Origin: a virus
Strand: one strand, 5' to 3'
Virus record (IMG/VR): IMGVR_UViG_3300048447_000446
Location: 1 to 20,999 of that record
Length of the DNA: 20,999 bases
Positions 2,811 through 19,572 of this stretch are shown piece after piece. Both the position numbers and the translations under genes were made by a program. Each line of letters opens with the position of its first letter. Position 1 is the stretch's first letter. The notes under the pieces were generated by a model. It saw only the letters and a program-made list of their open reading frames with translations, had not been told where the DNA came from and ran no database searches.

Positions 2811-3016
2811 GCGAGAAAGTAAAAACCAGCACCAAGGCCATGATCACGATTGAGCCTAACGAAGGTGGCGGCTTCACGGTATACGTCGGATTCAATGGCG
2901 ATAAAGCCGAATCGCCTCAAATGAAACAGGCAGGCAAGTTAGCGCTGCTGGGAATGCTGGCCATTAAAGAGGCCTTGGAAGAAGTCGGCGGCACCACTCA
3001 AACCACCATCCACTAA
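2807..3016 (+). CDS. Small hypothetical phage protein
   Basis: A 69-aa protein coupled to the previous gene by ATGA. The middle (MITIEPNEGGGFTVYVGF) suggests a short beta-meander, followed by a helix (KQAGKLALLGMLAIKEAL). There are no cysteines and no membrane segment. It ends the first tightly coupled run; a hairpin at 3022-3040 follows. Function is unknown. Confidence 0.65.
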   Translation: MSEKVKTSTKAMITIEPNEGGGFTVYVGFNGDKAESPQMKQAGKLALLGMLAIKEALEEVGGTTQTTIH

Positions 3017-3021
3017 GCGAA

Positions 3022-3040
3022 ACGCCCCTATGTGGGGCGT
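3022..3040 (+). terminator. GC-rich hairpin after the first early gene run
   Basis: ACGCCCC (3022-3028) and GGGGCGT (3034-3040) form a perfect 7-bp stem with a 5-base loop six bases after the stop of the previous gene. No T-run follows, so it is a weak intrinsic terminator at best. It may attenuate or protect the mRNA 3' end ahead of the lower-GC genes at 3090-3745. Confidence 0.4.
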
Positions 3041-3089
3041 CTGCCGGGCGCGGTGGCCCAGCACTGATGAGCAGCCAATGAGGTGAACA

Positions 3090-9273: not shown

Positions 9274-10874
9274 GCCCCACCGCGAAGTATCGGCGCAACC
9301 TGGTCAAAGCCAACGCGCCCGCACTAAAAGAGCAACAGACGAACGACGCCCGCATTGGCCAGCTCAAGCGCGAATTTGCCGAGCACCCCACTAAAGGCCT
9401 CACGCCTGCGCGCCTGTACCAGATCCTTGAAGCGGCTGAGCAAGGCGACCTCAAGGCGCAAAGCGAGCTGTTCGACGACATGGAGGAGAAAGACCCGCAG
9501 ATCGGCGCTGACCTCGGCAAGCGCCGCCAGCTCGCCGCCGAACTGGAGTGGCAGATCGTGCCGCCGGACGGTGCCAGCGCCCAGGAAAAGAAAGCCGCCG
9601 AGCACGCGGCTGAAGTGTTCAGTGGCTTCGAAGTCGAGGATCTCATTCTGGATCTCGGTACCGGCATCGGCCACGGCTGGGCCAACCTTGAGCTTTCGTG
9701 GCAGCGCGACGGCGCACTGCGCTACATCGAGCAGCCCACGCTGCGCCCCCATAGCTGGTTCAGGCTCCACCCGGATGACCAGAACTGCATCACCCTACGC
9801 GATAACAGCGCAACCGGTGCGGAGCTGTGGCCGTTGGGGTGGGTGCAACACCGCCACCGTGCAAAGTCCGGCTACGTCGCCCGCATGGGTTTACACCGCA
9901 TGCTGGCATGGCCGTACTTGTTTCAGAACTATGCGCTCGGGGATCTGGCTCAACTGCTGGAAATCTATGGCCTACCGGCACGCATCGGTAAGTACCCGAA
10001 AAACGCGACTGAAAAAGAGAAAGCCACGCTGCTGCGTGCCGTCGTCACCTTGGGCCAGAACGCCGCTGGCATTATCCCTGAAGGCATGGCCATCGACTTT
10101 ACCGAGGCAGCGGGTAAAGGCAGCTCTGCCGATATTTACAAAACGATGATGGATTGGTGCGAACGTGCCAAGGCTAAAGCGATTCTAGGCGGCACCTTAA
10201 CCTCCGGTACCGGCGAAGGTACGAACACAAATGCGCTGGGCAATGTTCACGAGCGAGGGCAAACCAGCCTTATTCGCTCCGACGTGCGCCAATACGCGGG
10301 CAGTATCCGCAATAGCATCCTGTGGCCCATGGCGGCACTGAATTTCGGTATTGATAAGCCAAACCGCGCCCCCCGTTTCTTTTTGGACACGGGCGAAACC
10401 GAAGACCTCGAACGCCTATCAAAGTCACTGCCCATCTTTGTGGACATGGGCGCGAAGATCCCGCTGTGGTGGCTGCATGAGAAATCCGGCATCCCCAAGG
10501 CGCAAGACGGCGAAGATGTTCTTATGCCAAAGGCAGCGCCAACCCCCTTTGGTGCGCTGCGCATTCCCGCCTCACGGCCACCGCTAGCTGCCCTACGCCA
10601 AGCACCCACGCAACCGGGCCAGCCCAGCTACTACCGCGATGCCACCCTCGACCGGCTCGACGACCAAGCGCAGCCAATCGTCACCGGCTGGGTCAACCAG
10701 GTGCAGCAGCTCGTCGAACAGGCCAGCAGCCTGGAGCAGTTGCAAGAGCTGATCGCTAACGCCTTTGACGACCTCGACGAATCGGAGCTTGCAGACGTGA
10801 TGGCCACCGCATTTGAAGCGGCCAACCTAGCAGGCCGTGCCGTGGTGTATGAGGAAACCGGCGATGCCGATTAG
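9267..10874 (+). CDS. Portal protein (DUF935, Mu gp29-like)
   Basis: A 535-aa protein of the DUF935 portal family. Recognisable segments include an N-terminal LTPARLYQILEAAEQGDL, the GIGHGWANLELSWQ motif, and RPHSWFRLHP; the C-terminal tail (about 470-535) is helical. It forms the ring through which DNA enters the head and which binds terminase and connector proteins. AGGAGG about six bases before ATG 9267 sets the start; the gene overlaps the terminase by seven bases. Its 3' end overlaps the MuF gene by 11 bases. Length is normal for the family. Confidence 0.94.
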   Translation: MVSPTAKYRRNLVKANAPALKEQQTNDARIGQLKREFAEHPTKGLTPARLYQILEAAEQGDLKAQSELFDDMEEKDPQIGADLGKRRQLAAELEWQIVPPDGASAQEKKAAEHAAEVFSGFEVEDLILDLGTGIGHGWANLELSWQRDGALRYIEQPTLRPHSWFRLHPDDQNCITLRDNSATGAELWPLGWVQHRHRAKSGYVARMGLHRMLAWPYLFQNYALGDLAQLLEIYGLPARIGKYPKNATEKEKATLLRAVVTLGQNAAGIIPEGMAIDFTEAAGKGSSADIYKTMMDWCERAKAKAILGGTLTSGTGEGTNTNALGNVHERGQTSLIRSDVRQYAGSIRNSILWPMAALNFGIDKPNRAPRFFLDTGETEDLERLSKSLPIFVDMGAKIPLWWLHEKSGIPKAQDGEDVLMPKAAPTPFGALRIPASRPPLAALRQAPTQPGQPSYYRDATLDRLDDQAQPIVTGWVNQVQQLVEQASSLEQLQELIANAFDDLDESELADVMATAFEAANLAGRAVVYEETGDAD

Positions 10875-12030
10875 CGCCCAGTTCAACCGCCCGTTCCCTG
10901 AGCAAATCAGCTTCTTTAGGAACAAGCTGAACCTGCCCACGACTCGCTCGGGGCAAATCACCCGCGACCAGAACGACGCCGCGTTTGTGGTCGCGGGTGC
11001 CACTAAGGCGGATCTGCTCGCGGATCTGCGCGGCGCAGTAGACGACGCGATCAGCAACGGCCAAAGCCTGGGCGAGTTTCGCCAGCAGTTTGAAGAGATT
11101 GTGGCACGGCGTGGTTGGACCGGCTGGACAGGCGAAGGCAGCAAAGCGGGCCGTGCATGGCGCACCCGCCTTATCTACAAGACAAATTTAGATACCAGTT
11201 ACGCCGCTGGCCGCTGGGCACAGATGACCGACCCGGACGTCGTACGCCTTCGCCCCTACTGGCGCTACATCCACAACACCATCGAAAACCCACGCCAGCA
11301 ACACCAGCGCTGGAACAACTTGGTGCTGCGTGCAGATGACCCTTGGTGGCAAGCGCACTACCCACCCAACGGCTTTGGCTGCAACTGCGGTGTCGAGACA
11401 CTCAACGAACGTGGCCTGCGCCGCCTGGGTAAAGATGGCCCGGATGCCGCACCCAACGACGGCACGTATGAAAGCGTCGATAACACCACCGGCGAAGTGG
11501 TCACAGTACCAAATGGCGTGCAACCCGGCTGGGACTACGCACCAGGGCAAACGGCAACGGAGCGTGCGATTGCCGCACGGCTAGAGCGCTTGGATAGCGT
11601 CGAAGCCACGATTGCTAGGCAGCATGTGGCCGACTTGGTTGAAGCGCCATTATTCAACCGCTTTTGGAATGGCGAAGTACGCGGTGAATATCCGGTGGCG
11701 GTGGTACCGCCCGTAGAACGACAGGTGTTAGGGGCAGAAAGCCCCGTGGTGCTGCTCTCTCAAGAAAGCCTAACGGCGCACAAGGTCAGCCACCCCGAAG
11801 TGGGGCTGGAGGATTACCGCCGCATTCAGCAGATACTGGACGAAGGCGAGGTGTACCAACGCGAAGGCGAATCAGGGCGCATGGTCTACCTGAGCCTTGG
11901 CGAACGGCTATACAGAGCCGCGCTAAAGCGAACAGGCGATGGCAAGAAGAACTACTTCCTCACGCTGTTTATCGTGAGCGATGAAAAGGCCGAGCGGGAA
12001 GTCAGGCAGAAGATGGAGCGCGTGCGCTAG
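10864..12030 (+). CDS. MuF/gp30 head morphogenesis protein with C-terminal nuclease-like domain
   Basis: A 388-aa protein from ATG 10864, preferred over GTG 10837 because GAGGAAA (10851-10857) lies six bases before it. Residues about 1-180 form the Phage_Mu_F domain: RLIYKTNLDTSYAAGRWAQM, YWRYIHNTIENPRQQHQRW and PPNGFGCNC (167-175). These proteins are minor head components near the portal. Residues about 294-388 (LSQESLTAHKVSHPEVGLED, RIQQILDEGEVYQ, LYRAALKRTGDGKKNYFLTLF) resemble the PBECR (BECR-fold RNase) domains often fused to MuF. The nuclease reading rests on recalled family resemblance; catalytic residues were not mapped. Confidence 0.88.
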   Translation: MPISAQFNRPFPEQISFFRNKLNLPTTRSGQITRDQNDAAFVVAGATKADLLADLRGAVDDAISNGQSLGEFRQQFEEIVARRGWTGWTGEGSKAGRAWRTRLIYKTNLDTSYAAGRWAQMTDPDVVRLRPYWRYIHNTIENPRQQHQRWNNLVLRADDPWWQAHYPPNGFGCNCGVETLNERGLRRLGKDGPDAAPNDGTYESVDNTTGEVVTVPNGVQPGWDYAPGQTATERAIAARLERLDSVEATIARQHVADLVEAPLFNRFWNGEVRGEYPVAVVPPVERQVLGAESPVVLLSQESLTAHKVSHPEVGLEDYRRIQQILDEGEVYQREGESGRMVYLSLGERLYRAALKRTGDGKKNYFLTLFIVSDEKAEREVRQKMERVR

Positions 12031-12038
12031 AGGAGAAC

Positions 12039-12122
12039 GTGGTGCAACGCTGGTTCGCCATCCCCAGATACCTCATCTGCTTGCGCAGGGTACACCAGGC
12101 GAATATTGGTCTTTCGCACCAC
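12039..12122 (+). repeat. Nested inverted-repeat element between MuF and gpG genes
   Basis: The 114-bp gap 12031-12144 has no convincing gene but contains stacked complementary arms. These are GTGGTGC (12039-12045) with GCACCAC (12116-12122), TTCGCC (12054-12059) with GGCGAA (12098-12103), TACC (12069-12072) with GGTA (12089-12092), and CTGC (12077-12080) with GCAG (12085-12088) around the loop TTGC. One long interrupted hairpin results. It could be a REP-like element, an mRNA processing or protection structure, or a regulatory RNA. Confidence 0.6.
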
Positions 12123-12144
12123 ACGAGCAGTATAGGAGAGAACC

Positions 12145-12588
12145 GTGATCACCATCAACGCCAACACCGACGCCATCGAACGCGCCATCACCGACCTGAT
12201 CAGCAAAGGCGACGACCTCACCGCGCCGATGAAGAGCATCGGTGAGGAGATGGTCAACCGCACTCAACAGCGGTTCCGCGATAAAGAAGCACCGGACGGC
12301 ACGCCCTGGGCACCGAACGCCCCTTCTACTGAAAAGCGCAAAGGCCATGACCGTGTACTCGAAGGCGAAAGCAAGCAGCTCGCCAAGCAGTTCAGCTACA
12401 GCGCCAGCAGCGAAGGCGTCGAATGGGGCAGCCTGATGGTCTATGCCGCGATGCAAAACTACGGTGGCACCAAGGCCGAGTTCCCCCACCTATGGGGCGA
12501 CATCCCCAGCCGCGAGTTCATCGGCCTGAACGATGACGACGAAGACGAGGTACTGGGCATCCTAGCCGACCATCTGATTGACTCTTAA
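12145..12588 (+). CDS. Virion morphogenesis protein (Mu gpG/gp31-like, tail completion family)
   Basis: A 147-aa protein of the phage virion morphogenesis (gpG/gpS tail-completion) family. Family features are FRDKEAPDGTPWAPN (about 44-58), the EWGSLMVYAAMQNYGG segment (about 92-107) and PSREFIGL. It starts at GTG 12145 behind TAGGAGAG. It acts in head-tail joining. It is the last gene before the AT-rich cassette, and Mu gene order would place the protease next. Confidence 0.9.
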   Translation: MITINANTDAIERAITDLISKGDDLTAPMKSIGEEMVNRTQQRFRDKEAPDGTPWAPNAPSTEKRKGHDRVLEGESKQLAKQFSYSASSEGVEWGSLMVYAAMQNYGGTKAEFPHLWGDIPSREFIGLNDDDEDEVLGILADHLIDS

Positions 12589-12608
12589 GAAAACTGAAAA
12601 AAACAAAA

Positions 12609-12637
12609 TTGATCTAACGTTTCATACAAATTAAAGT
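12609..12637 (+). promoter_or_regulatory. Candidate promoter for the AT-rich cassette
   Basis: TTGATC (12609-12614), a 17-base spacer and TAAAGT (12632-12637) form a plausible sigma-70 promoter 60 bases before the next gene. The gap 12589-12696 is strongly AT-rich; a second possible -10 (TATAAA) lies at 12664-12669. An own promoter would let the cassette be expressed from the prophage. This is motif matching only. Confidence 0.4.
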
Positions 12638-12696
12638 TACTAGGTGAATGGCAATGGTTTTCATATAAAACAATCGGTTATGTAAGGGAGCGGCGG

Positions 12697-13719
12697 ATGC
12701 CTCAAGATAAAGCAAAAATTACTTTCTATAAAATTACCGAATGTGGTTTTTACGGACGTGGCGAAGAAGCCCCTGAATTCGGAAATATGCAAAGTTTGCT
12801 TTCTAGTCTTGAGGAGTGGAGTGGAGGAAAACAGCTTGTCGAAACAAAAACTTATGAACCTAGTGGTATTGATGAGCAAATGCCTTGCTACCTCTTGAAC
12901 ATACATCGTTTGAACAACAATTGGTTAGTGACCATTTGGAATGAGACGCCCTCTACCGACGGCCAAACTGCATCTGCCGTTGGAACCTCCAGCGTTGGCA
13001 ACGCAGAAATTGTGATGAATGAGCTGCCAGAGGGAGGTATACCGGGGTTCGCAACATATTTTTGGTTTATTCCTGATCTGGACGTTTTTGCAAGCATACG
13101 TTTTCAGCATCTGATCACGGGACAGAAGCCTATGCAGCTATATATGGAGTCGTACCTAGCTGAATTTTCTCCTTATGTAGTATTAACAGATCCTGATGAC
13201 GACACAGATATAGAAATCATTGGTTATAAAGCAGCTGACGACGGGGAAGCCCAGCATTTGTACCCTAGGTTTAGAACATGTCTGTTCAGAAAACCAGGCA
13301 ATCGACAGTACCTTCTTGATAATGCACAGTTTATTCGTAAAATTATCTGTAAGTCATCGCTAAAGCTTAGCAGGCCTGAAGACTTGGCCGACTGGCAAAG
13401 GTTTCTCACCAACGTCCGTCTTAGAAGAGCCGAACCCAATGATGAATCAGTCAAGATAAAATACGAGGTAGGTGCTAGCCTTTCTCGAGCTGAGCTCAAT
13501 GAGCTTGTCCACGATTGGGATCAACAGCATGAGCGTCAGTGGGATGATTATGGTTTTAAAATTAGGGGAGAAAAAATTATTCACTGGCTGAGTCATTCTA
13601 TAGCTAGAGACGAATTCCAGGTTGAAGTTCAGAGAGATAACGCTGAGGTCGTCAACGCTCAAAGCCTGTTACGTGAACTCAACCGACTGCAGCCCTCAAT
13701 AACCAGGCTTTTAAATTAA
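12697..13719 (+). CDS. Unrecognised 340-aa protein of an AT-rich cassette
   Basis: A 340-aa soluble protein starting at ATG 12697 behind AAGGGAGCGG. No signal peptide or membrane segment is visible and no family was recognised. The N-terminal half looks mixed alpha/beta (KITFYKITECGFYGRGEEAP, then CYLLNIHRLNNNWLVTIWNE and a GIPGFATYFWFIPDLDVFASI core near 108-128). The C-terminal half is charged and helical (DLADWQRFLTNVRLRRAEPN; IIHWLSHSIARDEFQVEVQR). Codon use and GC (line 13561-13620 is 23/60) differ sharply from the head genes. It sits with a membrane-protein gene inside an otherwise syntenic late operon, so it is probably a moron; phage defence or superinfection exclusion is possible but unproven. 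Confidence 0.8.
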   Translation: MPQDKAKITFYKITECGFYGRGEEAPEFGNMQSLLSSLEEWSGGKQLVETKTYEPSGIDEQMPCYLLNIHRLNNNWLVTIWNETPSTDGQTASAVGTSSVGNAEIVMNELPEGGIPGFATYFWFIPDLDVFASIRFQHLITGQKPMQLYMESYLAEFSPYVVLTDPDDDTDIEIIGYKAADDGEAQHLYPRFRTCLFRKPGNRQYLLDNAQFIRKIICKSSLKLSRPEDLADWQRFLTNVRLRRAEPNDESVKIKYEVGASLSRAELNELVHDWDQQHERQWDDYGFKIRGEKIIHWLSHSIARDEFQVEVQRDNAEVVNAQSLLRELNRLQPSITRLLN

Positions 13720-13723
13720 AGTG

Positions 13724-14296
13724 ATGATACGAGTACTTGCCTACGTTGCGTCCGTTGCTATCTTGACTCTGTCTTTTTGGCTTGGACGTGAAGTCCCTTT
13801 CAGTGAGCAGTGGCCCTTGTTTGAAGCGCTGCGCACCACTGCTGCAATTATCTTTGCGGTTGTGGGTGCTTGGTTAGCAATTATCTATCCAGATCGCTTA
13901 AAAATCTCTTTTAGCCAGCTCAAAGGGGAAAAGAAAACTGCCCAAAATGGCTCAGGCATCGGGAAGCTTTTTACACCAGTTGCGCACTCTACCGCTATTT
14001 TGTGTGTGATATTGCTTTTAGGAATCCTTGCCCCACTCATCAAGACGATTGACGTGCTTCACGACCACGTTGAGTTACTGCGGGGGTGCTCTTACCTAGT
14101 TCTATCGTCTCTTACGCTATGGCAATTATGGACTGTCATTCTGTCTTTGGTGCCCGCCGATGTCATTGTCACGCAATCAAATAATGATGAGCGTAGGCAA
14201 AAAACACTGGATGGTCTAACTTCTCAATCTCGATTTGAAAAACGCCCACCAGAAATAGATGAAAGGGAAGGCCAAGGCGATAGAAGCGAAAACTAA
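13724..14296 (+). CDS. Four-helix membrane protein of the AT-rich cassette
   Basis: A 190-aa protein (ATG 13724; an adjacent GTG at 13721 would add one residue). No clear ribosome-binding site is seen, and it begins four bases after the previous stop, so translation is probably coupled. Four hydrophobic segments are visible near residues 5-22, 37-55, 87-106 and 118-142, with a basic loop between the second and third (DRLKISFSQLKGEKKTA). The C-terminal 45 residues are charged and soluble. No family was recognised. Its pairing with the 340-aa protein suggests a sensor-effector or anchor arrangement, which is inference. Confidence 0.77.
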   Translation: MIRVLAYVASVAILTLSFWLGREVPFSEQWPLFEALRTTAAIIFAVVGAWLAIIYPDRLKISFSQLKGEKKTAQNGSGIGKLFTPVAHSTAILCVILLLGILAPLIKTIDVLHDHVELLRGCSYLVLSSLTLWQLWTVILSLVPADVIVTQSNNDERRQKTLDGLTSQSRFEKRPPEIDEREGQGDRSEN

Positions 14297-14362
14297 CCAT
14301 GGCTATGGCTACTCGTTTGCAATCCAAGCTTACCGCAAAGAAGCTGTCTAATCGCTGACAAT

Positions 14363-14390
14363 CACCGACCTGCTACGGTGCCCCGACTTT
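14363..14390 (+). terminator. Weak terminator candidate after the AT-rich cassette
   Basis: CACCG (14363-14367) and CGGTG (14376-14380) form a 5-bp stem with an 8-base loop, followed ten bases on by a short T-rich run. The stem is short, so this is tentative. Confidence 0.3.
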
Positions 14391-14401
14391 TCTCTTACAA
14401 G

Positions 14402-14446
14402 CGCGTTAGACCCGCGTTAGATGTCGATTTTGACGGACAATAATGT
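14402..14446 (+). promoter_or_regulatory. Possible activator-dependent late promoter (position of Mu P_I)
   Basis: CGCGTTAGA occurs at 14402-14410 and 14413-14421, an 11-bp spacing that puts both copies on one face of the helix. An AATAAT -10-like element at 14439-14444 follows about 17 bases after the second copy, with no good -35. That layout fits a promoter served by a Mor/C-type activator. In Mu, P_I lies just upstream of the protease gene, as here. The gap 14297-14548 holds nothing else but the weak hairpin and the dyad at 14467-14496. Confidence 0.4.
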
Positions 14447-14466
14447 TGGTCGTCACTTGCGATCCC

Positions 14467-14496
14467 ACTTTAAACCCTACACAAGCCCTTTAAAGT
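14467..14496 (+). repeat. 8-bp dyad upstream of the protease gene
   Basis: ACTTTAAA (14467-14474) and TTTAAAGT (14489-14496) are perfect inverted repeats with a 14-base spacer and 22-bp centre spacing, about two helical turns. It could be an operator for a dimeric regulator or a leader hairpin in the late transcript. Confidence 0.5.
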
Positions 14497-14548
14497 CTTT
14501 AACCCACGCTAAATCCCGCTAGCCTCCCCCGCCCCCGATCATGGGGGC

Positions 14549-18636: not shown

Positions 18637-19572
18637 GTGAGTATGAAAACGAACCGCCGGGCGCTCAGAGTCGCCCTGGAATCTGAATACAACGACGGCA
18701 CCACCACCCCGGACGCCGCCACTAAGGCCGTGTTAGCGCGTGAAATCACGGCAACGCCGCTGGCCGGTAACAACATCGAGCGTAACTTCGTGCGCCCGTA
18801 CTACGGTAACTCACCGCAGGCACCGGGAGAGAAGCACGTCCAGGTGGTCGTGGAAGTCGAGCTGAACACCAGCGGTGAGCTGGGCACCCCTCCCCCTTGG
18901 GGCACGATGCTGCGCGCCTGCGGTTGGAGCGAAGTGATTGCGGTAGGTGAAAGCGTCACCTACTCACCCGTGTCTGATGACGAAGACTCGTGTGTGTTCT
19001 TCGCCCACATGGATGGCAACTTGCACAAGGGTCGCGGTGCACGCGGCACACCAGAATTCACGCTCAATGGTAACGGCATTCCTGTCATTCGCTTCACGCT
19101 TTACGGGCTGATTAGCCCTGTGACGCAAGAAGAGTTGCCCGCCGTCACGCTGACCCAGTGGAAGAAAGCGCTGGTGGTCAACAGCACGAACACCGAACAG
19201 CTCAGCTTCATGGGGGCCACCGTCCCGTTCAGCCAGTTCAGCCTGAACATGGCGGGTCAAGTGGAGCACATGTCCGAAATTATTGGTGGTGCCGATATCG
19301 AGATTACCGGGCGCGGCCCCTCCGGCACGCTGCAAATCGAAGACCCCGGCGTGGGCGTCAAGGACTACTTCGCGGTACACCAGAACGCAGAGACCGGGGT
19401 GCTCACGCTCACCCACGGCAAAACCCCCGGCAACATCATTGAGTTCAACATGCCCTCGGTGGGCATCGAAGCGCCCACCTACGCCGATGTGAAAGGCAAG
19501 CAGATGTTGAGCATCAACTACATGCCCGAGCCGGTCGACGGTAACGACGAAGTGACCATCGTCGTCAAATAA
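18637..19572 (+). CDS. Tail tube protein, long flexible-tail type
   Basis: A 311-aa protein from GTG 18637, six bases after AGGAGAA (18624-18630); ATG 18643 is the alternative. The N-terminal MKTNRRALRVALESEYNDGT and ITATPLAGNNIERNFVRPYY, the ARGTPEFTLNGNGIPVIRFTL segment's repeat-like beta pattern and the SVGIEAPTYADVKGKQMLSI end are typical of phage tail tube proteins. No sheath gene is present between it and the connector genes, so the tail should be non-contractile. An 11-bp hairpin follows the stop. Confidence 0.82.
   Translation: MSMKTNRRALRVALESEYNDGTTTPDAATKAVLAREITATPLAGNNIERNFVRPYYGNSPQAPGEKHVQVVVEVELNTSGELGTPPPWGTMLRACGWSEVIAVGESVTYSPVSDDEDSCVFFAHMDGNLHKGRGARGTPEFTLNGNGIPVIRFTLYGLISPVTQEELPAVTLTQWKKALVVNSTNTEQLSFMGATVPFSQFSLNMAGQVEHMSEIIGGADIEITGRGPSGTLQIEDPGVGVKDYFAVHQNAETGVLTLTHGKTPGNIIEFNMPSVGIEAPTYADVKGKQMLSINYMPEPVDGNDEVTIVVK

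Follow-up and report, generated by a model that had tools for sequence, protein, structure and literature searches.

The window and its head operon

The window is a virus record of 20,999 bases from a Mu-like phage of Halomonas-type bacteria. According to profile searches, its head operon has the Mu-like gene order (terminase, portal, MuF, gpG-like morphogenesis protein, protease). The two genes that matter most here are annotated as follows.

10864 to 12030, plus strand: MuF head protein gene (homologue of Mu gp30/F), 388 aa (PF04233, E = 3e-13)
11026 to 11394, plus strand: MuF domain proper (PF04233 match)
12145 to 12588, plus strand: gpG-like virion morphogenesis gene (PF05069, E = 1e-28); its start region holds the promoter-like sequence of the RNA described below

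The MuF gene starts with the ATG at 10864, at a point where a Mu-type portal gene has not yet ended, and its stop codon ends at 12030. In PHROGs, the protein matches phrog_220 (minor head protein and DNA pilot) with an E-value of 1e-89. The Phage_Mu_F match (E = 3e-13) covers residues 64-186, counted on the ORF as listed from 10837.

Two further observations concern the surroundings. A cargo hotspot is located between gpG and the protease gene (12589-14548), and its gene content varies among relatives. The window carries genes for 340 and 191 aa there (phrog_24371 and phrog_37654), while the relatives have 352+181 (L002), 285 (L006), 153 (L012), 314 (L019) or none (L011); the annotated gyrase site of phage Mu is at the same position. 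Between small upstream ORFs, a type II hammerhead ribozyme is encoded at 3015-3080 on the plus strand (Rfam RF02276, 72.9 bits, cut-off 37).

The C-terminal domain of the MuF protein

A preliminary description of this DNA had claimed a BECR-like nuclease domain beyond the MuF domain, at 11743-12027, and had cited the stretches SHPEVGLEDYRRIQQILDEG and LYRAALKRTGDGKKNYF, both of which are present where it placed them. The claimed region is indeed a separate module of ~95 residues. The whole C-terminal module spans approximately 11701-12027, and its folded core in the AlphaFold model nearly coincides with the claimed range.

11740 to 12021, plus strand: C-terminal BECR-fold domain, divergent PBECR3-like predicted RNase (AlphaFold, fold matches, hhalign to PBECR3)
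11791 to 11793, plus strand: His codon (SHPEV); predicted to be catalytic, located in the N-terminal helix and invariant (alignment, model)
11926 to 11928, plus strand: Lys codon (ALKRT), nearly invariant (alignment)
11962 to 11964, plus strand: Thr codon (FLTLF) in strand 4, second predicted active-site residue (alignment, model)

Two relatives with MuF domains that are ~50% identical, Chromohalobacter phage YPCBV-1 and Thiobacimonas phage P1 (ThpP1), lack the tail and end at 263-273 aa. The tail is thus an accessory module. It is swapped or absent in relatives, and the domain is also borne on very different MuF backgrounds. Relatives of the domain were found on viral contigs and in the genomes of Halomonas, Vreelandella, Terasakiispira and Methylovulum, so that copies exist in bacteria of the Halomonas group. 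Viral scans with single queries returned no relative for L049 and one for L050.

When searched alone, the last ~95 residues had no match in Pfam, NCBIfam or PHROGs, and a search of the PDB by sequence gave only chance-level matches. An AlphaFold model of the domain was computed from 18 window and locus sequences. This model, which is confident (pLDDT 86.5, pTM 0.81), has two helices (66-75 and 87-93), followed by four strands (95-99, 105-111, 114-122 and 129-136). Its best fold matches in the PDB are BrnT (Z 6.4), a Salmonella toxin (7vd7, Z 5.8), CdiA-CT (6cp9, Z 4.2), RelE and HigB; Z-values below 8 are modest, but most of these matches belong to a single functional class, the BECR/RelE RNase toxins. 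ToxN is absent among the PDB fold matches listed. The fold matches among viral predictions include MuF C-terminal (MuF-C) and nuclease proteins.

The window domain is too divergent to reach the cut-off of any Pfam family. The profile of its family, when aligned to PBECR3 members by hhalign, gave a probability of 90.5 and an E-value of 1.4e-6; the controls gave 0.3% each (the family profile against PBECR2, and an unrelated gpG profile). One family member (L051) matched PBECR3 with an E-value of 5e-5 and 23.6 bits, which is below the cut-off of 30, and matched PBECR1 weakly. PBECR2 is not supported as the nearest family, given the hhalign value of 0.3% and an empty own-record search. MuF_C (PF18819) was rejected: it matched Mu, B3 and JBD18, each weakly, and did not match the window.

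Iyer et al. (2017, PMC5512222) describe the active-site pattern of PBECR RNases as a helix His combined with a strand Thr/Ser. In the family alignment, H76 is invariant, and the position of T133 of the window is Thr or Ser in all aligned members. The window domain has in common with PBECR3 (PF18812) and the MuF-C domain of Mu gp30 the C-terminal fusion to MuF, the BECR fold, the helix His and strand Thr/Ser, and the head gene context. The preliminary description is therefore supported with respect to the BECR assignment, by the RNase fold matches of the model, the PBECR3 alignment and the retained His and Thr/Ser; neither a BECR match nor a BECR-type fold is missing. Alignment and model together support the assignment as a divergent PBECR3-like predicted RNase, and the domain would be expected to have the metal-independent RNase activity that characterizes PBECR domains.

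Seven other loci (L231, L244, L230, L262, L276, L320 and L348) have MuF ends of a different kind, which are long domains with HExxH-like metallopeptidase motifs and no BECR domain.

A structured RNA in the gap between MuF and gpG

MuF toxins usually precede a small ORF that is taken as the immunity gene (Jamet et al. 2017, PMC5576092). A dedicated immunity protein, which the preliminary description had proposed to look for, is not encoded between MuF and gpG; a conserved structured RNA on the opposite strand is found there instead. The gap has 114 nt without a plausible gene, and no conserved immunity ORF was found in it. The sole ORF (12039, 68 aa) was rejected as an immunity gene: it continues into gpG out of frame, and the covariation of this DNA is that of an RNA. 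Domain carriers have such a gap, whereas MuF genes without the domain abut gpG directly. The elements of the gap are as follows.

12039 to 12122, minus strand: 84-nt structured RNA (covariation; minus strand folds better)
12098 to 12103, minus strand: D-like loop UUCGCC, kissing partner of the T-like loop (alignment)
12054 to 12059, minus strand: T-like loop GGCGAA, kissing partner of the D-like loop (alignment)
12129 to 12158, minus strand: sigma70-like promoter, TTGATG-18 nt-TATACT (9/12 matches; 0.1 expected in shuffles)

The RNA is a cloverleaf with a four-way junction. It consists of a 7-bp closing stem that is acceptor-like, a D-arm-like hairpin, a middle arm and a T-arm-like hairpin. 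The middle arm is longer and has a conserved GAUGAG motif (a UGAUGAG-like internal loop).

The structure is supported by three sets of sequences. In the window-type RNA (11 distinct sequences), 99.0% of the cells are paired and 10 of the 29 pairs show two-sided changes, a result equalled by none of 500 shuffles. Sliding the alignment by one column destroys the structure; because the structures were drawn from the tested sequences, such slid controls favor them, and the shuffles and two-sided changes are the stronger evidence. A second type in the same protein family (type B, 20 sequences) is paired at 97.5%, with two-sided changes in 20 of 29 pairs and 0/500 shuffles equal, and its nested helices were also recovered by RNAalifold without guidance. 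At Mu-type MuF loci, there is an RNA class (12 sequences) that is unrelated in sequence and has the same plan (99.4% paired, two-sided changes in 18 of 30 pairs, 0/500 shuffles). The loop-loop helix covaries within each set. It is UUCGCC/GGCGAA, UUCGUC/GACGAA or UGCGCC/GGCGUA in the window class, and has 5 bp in the Mu-type class (CUCCC/GGGAG, CUGCC/GGCAG, CUGUC/GACAG or CCCCC/GGGGG); inspection of the type B alignments gave GGC/GCC, CGCU/AGCG, ACC/GGU and AGCC/GGCU.

Of 47 distinct elements, 43 fold better on the minus strand, and several G-U pairs arise only when that strand is read; folding of the gap on the sense strand is poorer and was rejected. These data bear on a reading as a cis element, which would serve the MuF-gpG mRNA by antisense action or in processing and might be cut by the RNase to limit late expression. 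The RNA lies exactly between MuF and gpG and opposite to the late transcript, as such an element should, and the element would become useless once catalysis is lost. The folding energy and the wobble pairs, however, indicate that it is rather the minus-strand RNA that folds, and the paired region is outside both reading frames. Moreover, gpG does not need such an element, there being none where MuF lacks the domain. We consider a cis element quite unlikely.

The RNA resembles a tRNA in its size, its cloverleaf and its contact between D-loop and T-loop. It differs in having a long middle arm with the UGAUGAG-type internal loop and no anticodon arm. It has no Rfam match at the gathering threshold, the region 11900-12300 matches no tRNA model at E-values up to 10, and ARAGORN reports no tRNA in the window. 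A tRNA gene in the window gap was rejected on these negatives. The structured RNA is previously undescribed and has no Rfam family. In other MuF families, the gap element has sub-threshold matches to tRNA-Sec. The tRNA-like shape and this weak similarity would suit an RNA that acts during infection as a decoy, or as a substitute for damaged tRNA, rather than in immunity of the host cell. Neither a CCA end nor an anticodon arm of the standard kind was recognized, and there is no tRNA call in the window, which makes such a role very unlikely.

Three loci of another MuF C-terminal family carry a minus-strand element with sub-threshold tRNA-Sec likeness and the T-arm-like stretch GGTTCGAATCC (L245:2032-2111, L260:3714-3789 and L238:3760-3834). 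This element may be a closer tRNA mimic.

The -10 box of the promoter-like sequence ends 6 nt ahead of the RNA stem, and it belongs to the one promoter-like site found, compared to 0.1 in shuffles. Nearly all Halomonas relatives have the same promoter arrangement, and most others have the TATACT box; the same search did not find a promoter in L062, L064 and L203. We predict that the RNA is transcribed from this sequence, independently of the late operon. In L037 and L040, the RNA is present twice in the gap between MuF and gpG, as diverged copies in tandem, and in L040 each copy has its own -10-like box.

Link between the RNA and the catalytic residue

The relation between gap and catalytic residue was evaluated for B3-type MuF loci, which were collected by two protein-based scans, supplemented with earlier loci and made non-redundant at 90% identity. 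This resulted in 71 loci with a measurable gap, and a gap was counted when it had 93 nt or more. It is present in 52 of 52 loci with an intact catalytic residue, in 1 of 11 that have lost the residue and in 0 of 8 that have no domain (intact versus lost: Fisher p = 8.6e-11); gap length is a proxy in this test, the RNA itself not being the scored item, and the catalytic state in the families other than that of the window was assigned manually, with knowledge of the gaps. Under a blind rule, which accepts any His in the helix window, a gap occurs in 35 of 36 loci with His versus 1 of 5 without. The single miss of this rule is L242, where another position of the helix is occupied by a His.

The loci with a lost residue span several families. 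They include L048 and L042 (His deleted or replaced by Gln), L242 (His to Ala), Fc02 and L252 (loss of Arg in a PBECR2-like family), L263 and JBD18 as well as L246, L247 and L251. Phage B3 has retained His and gap alike, and neither is left in its relative JBD18. On a MuF-domain tree with eight independent contrasts, 7-8 agree with the coupling (7.5 on average) and none is opposed (p = 0.008-0.016); when intact and lost are compared alone, five of six contrasts agree and none is opposed, which is short of significance (p = 0.0625). L255 is a true exception, as the helix His is absent and there is nevertheless an element-like gap (~0-115 nt after the MuF stop). In L342, too, the usual position is without His, and element-like sequence is nevertheless found downstream of MuF. 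Fold z-scores, computed for the 115 nt that follow MuF, were so noisy that the classes could not be told apart, and they were discarded.

Gap length was unusable for the Mu-type set, where MuF is often followed by a gene other than gpG. A second RNA model, of the Mu-type RNA, was applied here. In 88 sources, it matched at 17 places with a score of at least 45 bits, adjoining His-bearing domain carriers, and had no match beside seven His-less loci (L054, L297, L302, L304, L306, L325 and L328). Most of these sequences had served in building the models, so that a match was built in; L274, L052, L343 and L055 had not. Three of the His-less loci (L302, L297 and L304) have a different conserved noncoding stretch downstream of MuF (CGCCCTCAGAAGC...GTTTTTAAATGGG).

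The RNA was also approached independently of the protein, by scanning all viral contigs with a DNA pattern for the type B core. Most of the 83 stretches that were returned are unsupported by the covariance model, and 18 confident copies (66 bits or more) were kept. Three of these (L144, L187 and L137) are new with respect to the protein searches, and in each the RNA is located 4-5 nt behind a MuF gene with His in its domain. The other confident copies, as far as they were checked or recognized by contig, belong to carriers that were already known.

Phage Mu is outside the coupling set. It has lost the His and lacks the RNA, which fits the coupling. Its gp30 carries a PBECR domain that is considered inactive, as stated by Iyer et al. 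(2017, PMC5512222), whereas the window domain keeps the active-site pattern. Mu thus illustrates that the fold may persist without activity, and the window domain, too, might be a tail without activity that is structural or binds RNA, which has been proposed for Mu gp30, and the RNA might be unrelated to this domain. Against this reading stand the retained His and Thr/Ser of the window domain and the joint loss of His and RNA in Mu, and the coupling would have to be coincidence; we regard it as highly improbable.

A link to the catalytic residue would also be expected if the RNA were a cofactor or cargo, carried into the virion by the BECR domain as a ribonucleoprotein and required for its activity or choice of target. 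Such a role would account for the strong conservation of the kissing-loop fold. A promoter on the opposite strand and apart from the late operon is, however, a better fit to an immunity factor that is needed beyond virion assembly, and the tandem diverged copies resemble broadened immunity. A cofactor or cargo function is in our view unlikely.

Proposed mechanism

An RNase borne by the head endangers the producing cell as well as lysogens that are hit by sibling phages. The RNA takes the place of the immunity gene, is on the opposite strand, has its own promoter-like sequence and is lost together with the active site. RNA immunity is thus the simplest reading, and the retention of the RNA only where the active-site residue is present suggests an RNA with which the phage neutralizes its own weapon. 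We propose, with a probability of about 0.6, that the RNase domain carried by the virion is countered by an immunity RNA that mimics tRNA, is made from its own promoter and blocks the active site. The domain, its fold and active-site pattern, the structure and strand of the RNA, the promoter-like sequence and the coupling are computed results, on which this proposal builds.

The BECR-fold RNase domain would enter the phage head as the tail of MuF and would probably pass into the next cell along with the DNA. The 84-nt RNA would be produced from its own promoter-like sequence, outside the control of the late operon. It most likely binds to the RNase and blocks its active site as a substrate mimic; it is the coupling to the catalytic residue that points to binding and inhibition. 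As an RNA antitoxin, it would shield the producing cell and resident lysogens from the RNase of their own or sibling phages, and those harmed would be naive cells or competing phages. The tRNA-like shape of the RNA suggests that the natural target of the RNase is probably tRNA. Tandem diverged copies, as in L037 and L040, would broaden the protection.

Comparison with known systems

The window locus is similar to the MuF polymorphic toxins of temperate phages (PMC5576092) in that a MuF domain is combined with an exchangeable, toxin-like C-terminal domain that is absent or swapped in relatives. It differs in having a minus-strand structured RNA, followed by gpG, where a small immunity ORF is expected. 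An RNA partner also sets the window phage apart from PBECR/MuF-C as described in the accessible part of Iyer et al. (PMC5512222), where none is mentioned.

By analogy, the pairing of a predicted RNase with a structured RNA that has tertiary loop contacts would resemble type III toxin-antitoxin systems (ToxIN, CptIN and TenpIN). The RNA antitoxin of type III systems consists of tandem repeats that are located upstream of the toxin and on the same strand. The window RNA, in contrast, is downstream and on the opposite strand, has its own promoter-like sequence, mostly occurs as a single copy and is a four-way cloverleaf, and the toxin-like domain has a BECR-like fold and belongs to a head protein. 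The closest solved folds to the window domain are BrnT/RelE and CdiA-CT RNase toxins, with a sequence identity of ~10%. These are countered by protein antitoxins or immunity proteins. For an RNA partner of MuF, or a tRNA-like antitoxin, no precedent was found in the open literature searched, a search that was thin on subscription journals and preprints.

We are slightly inclined to believe that the matter goes beyond the window, and that a widespread class of kissing-loop cloverleaf RNAs provides the head RNases of Mu-like phages, across several PBECR families, with RNA immunity or else with an RNA partner that is obligate. If true, this is a new class of structured RNA, new also to Rfam, and to our knowledge the first RNA immunity for a virion-delivered toxin. 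It would give a concrete answer to the question of how phages with RNase-bearing head proteins might spare their own host. The predicted PBECR activity becomes testable by a catalytic mutant, with and without the RNA, and a tRNA-like inhibitor would hint at the target of the RNase. Cultured phages offer a natural experiment, with B3 on one side and JBD18 and Mu on the other.

In phage B3, a hypothetical protein of ~32 aa (B3ORF34) is annotated inside the MuF-gpG gap (L087:4234-4332, which is 18980-19078 of the record). It may be a misread RNA region.
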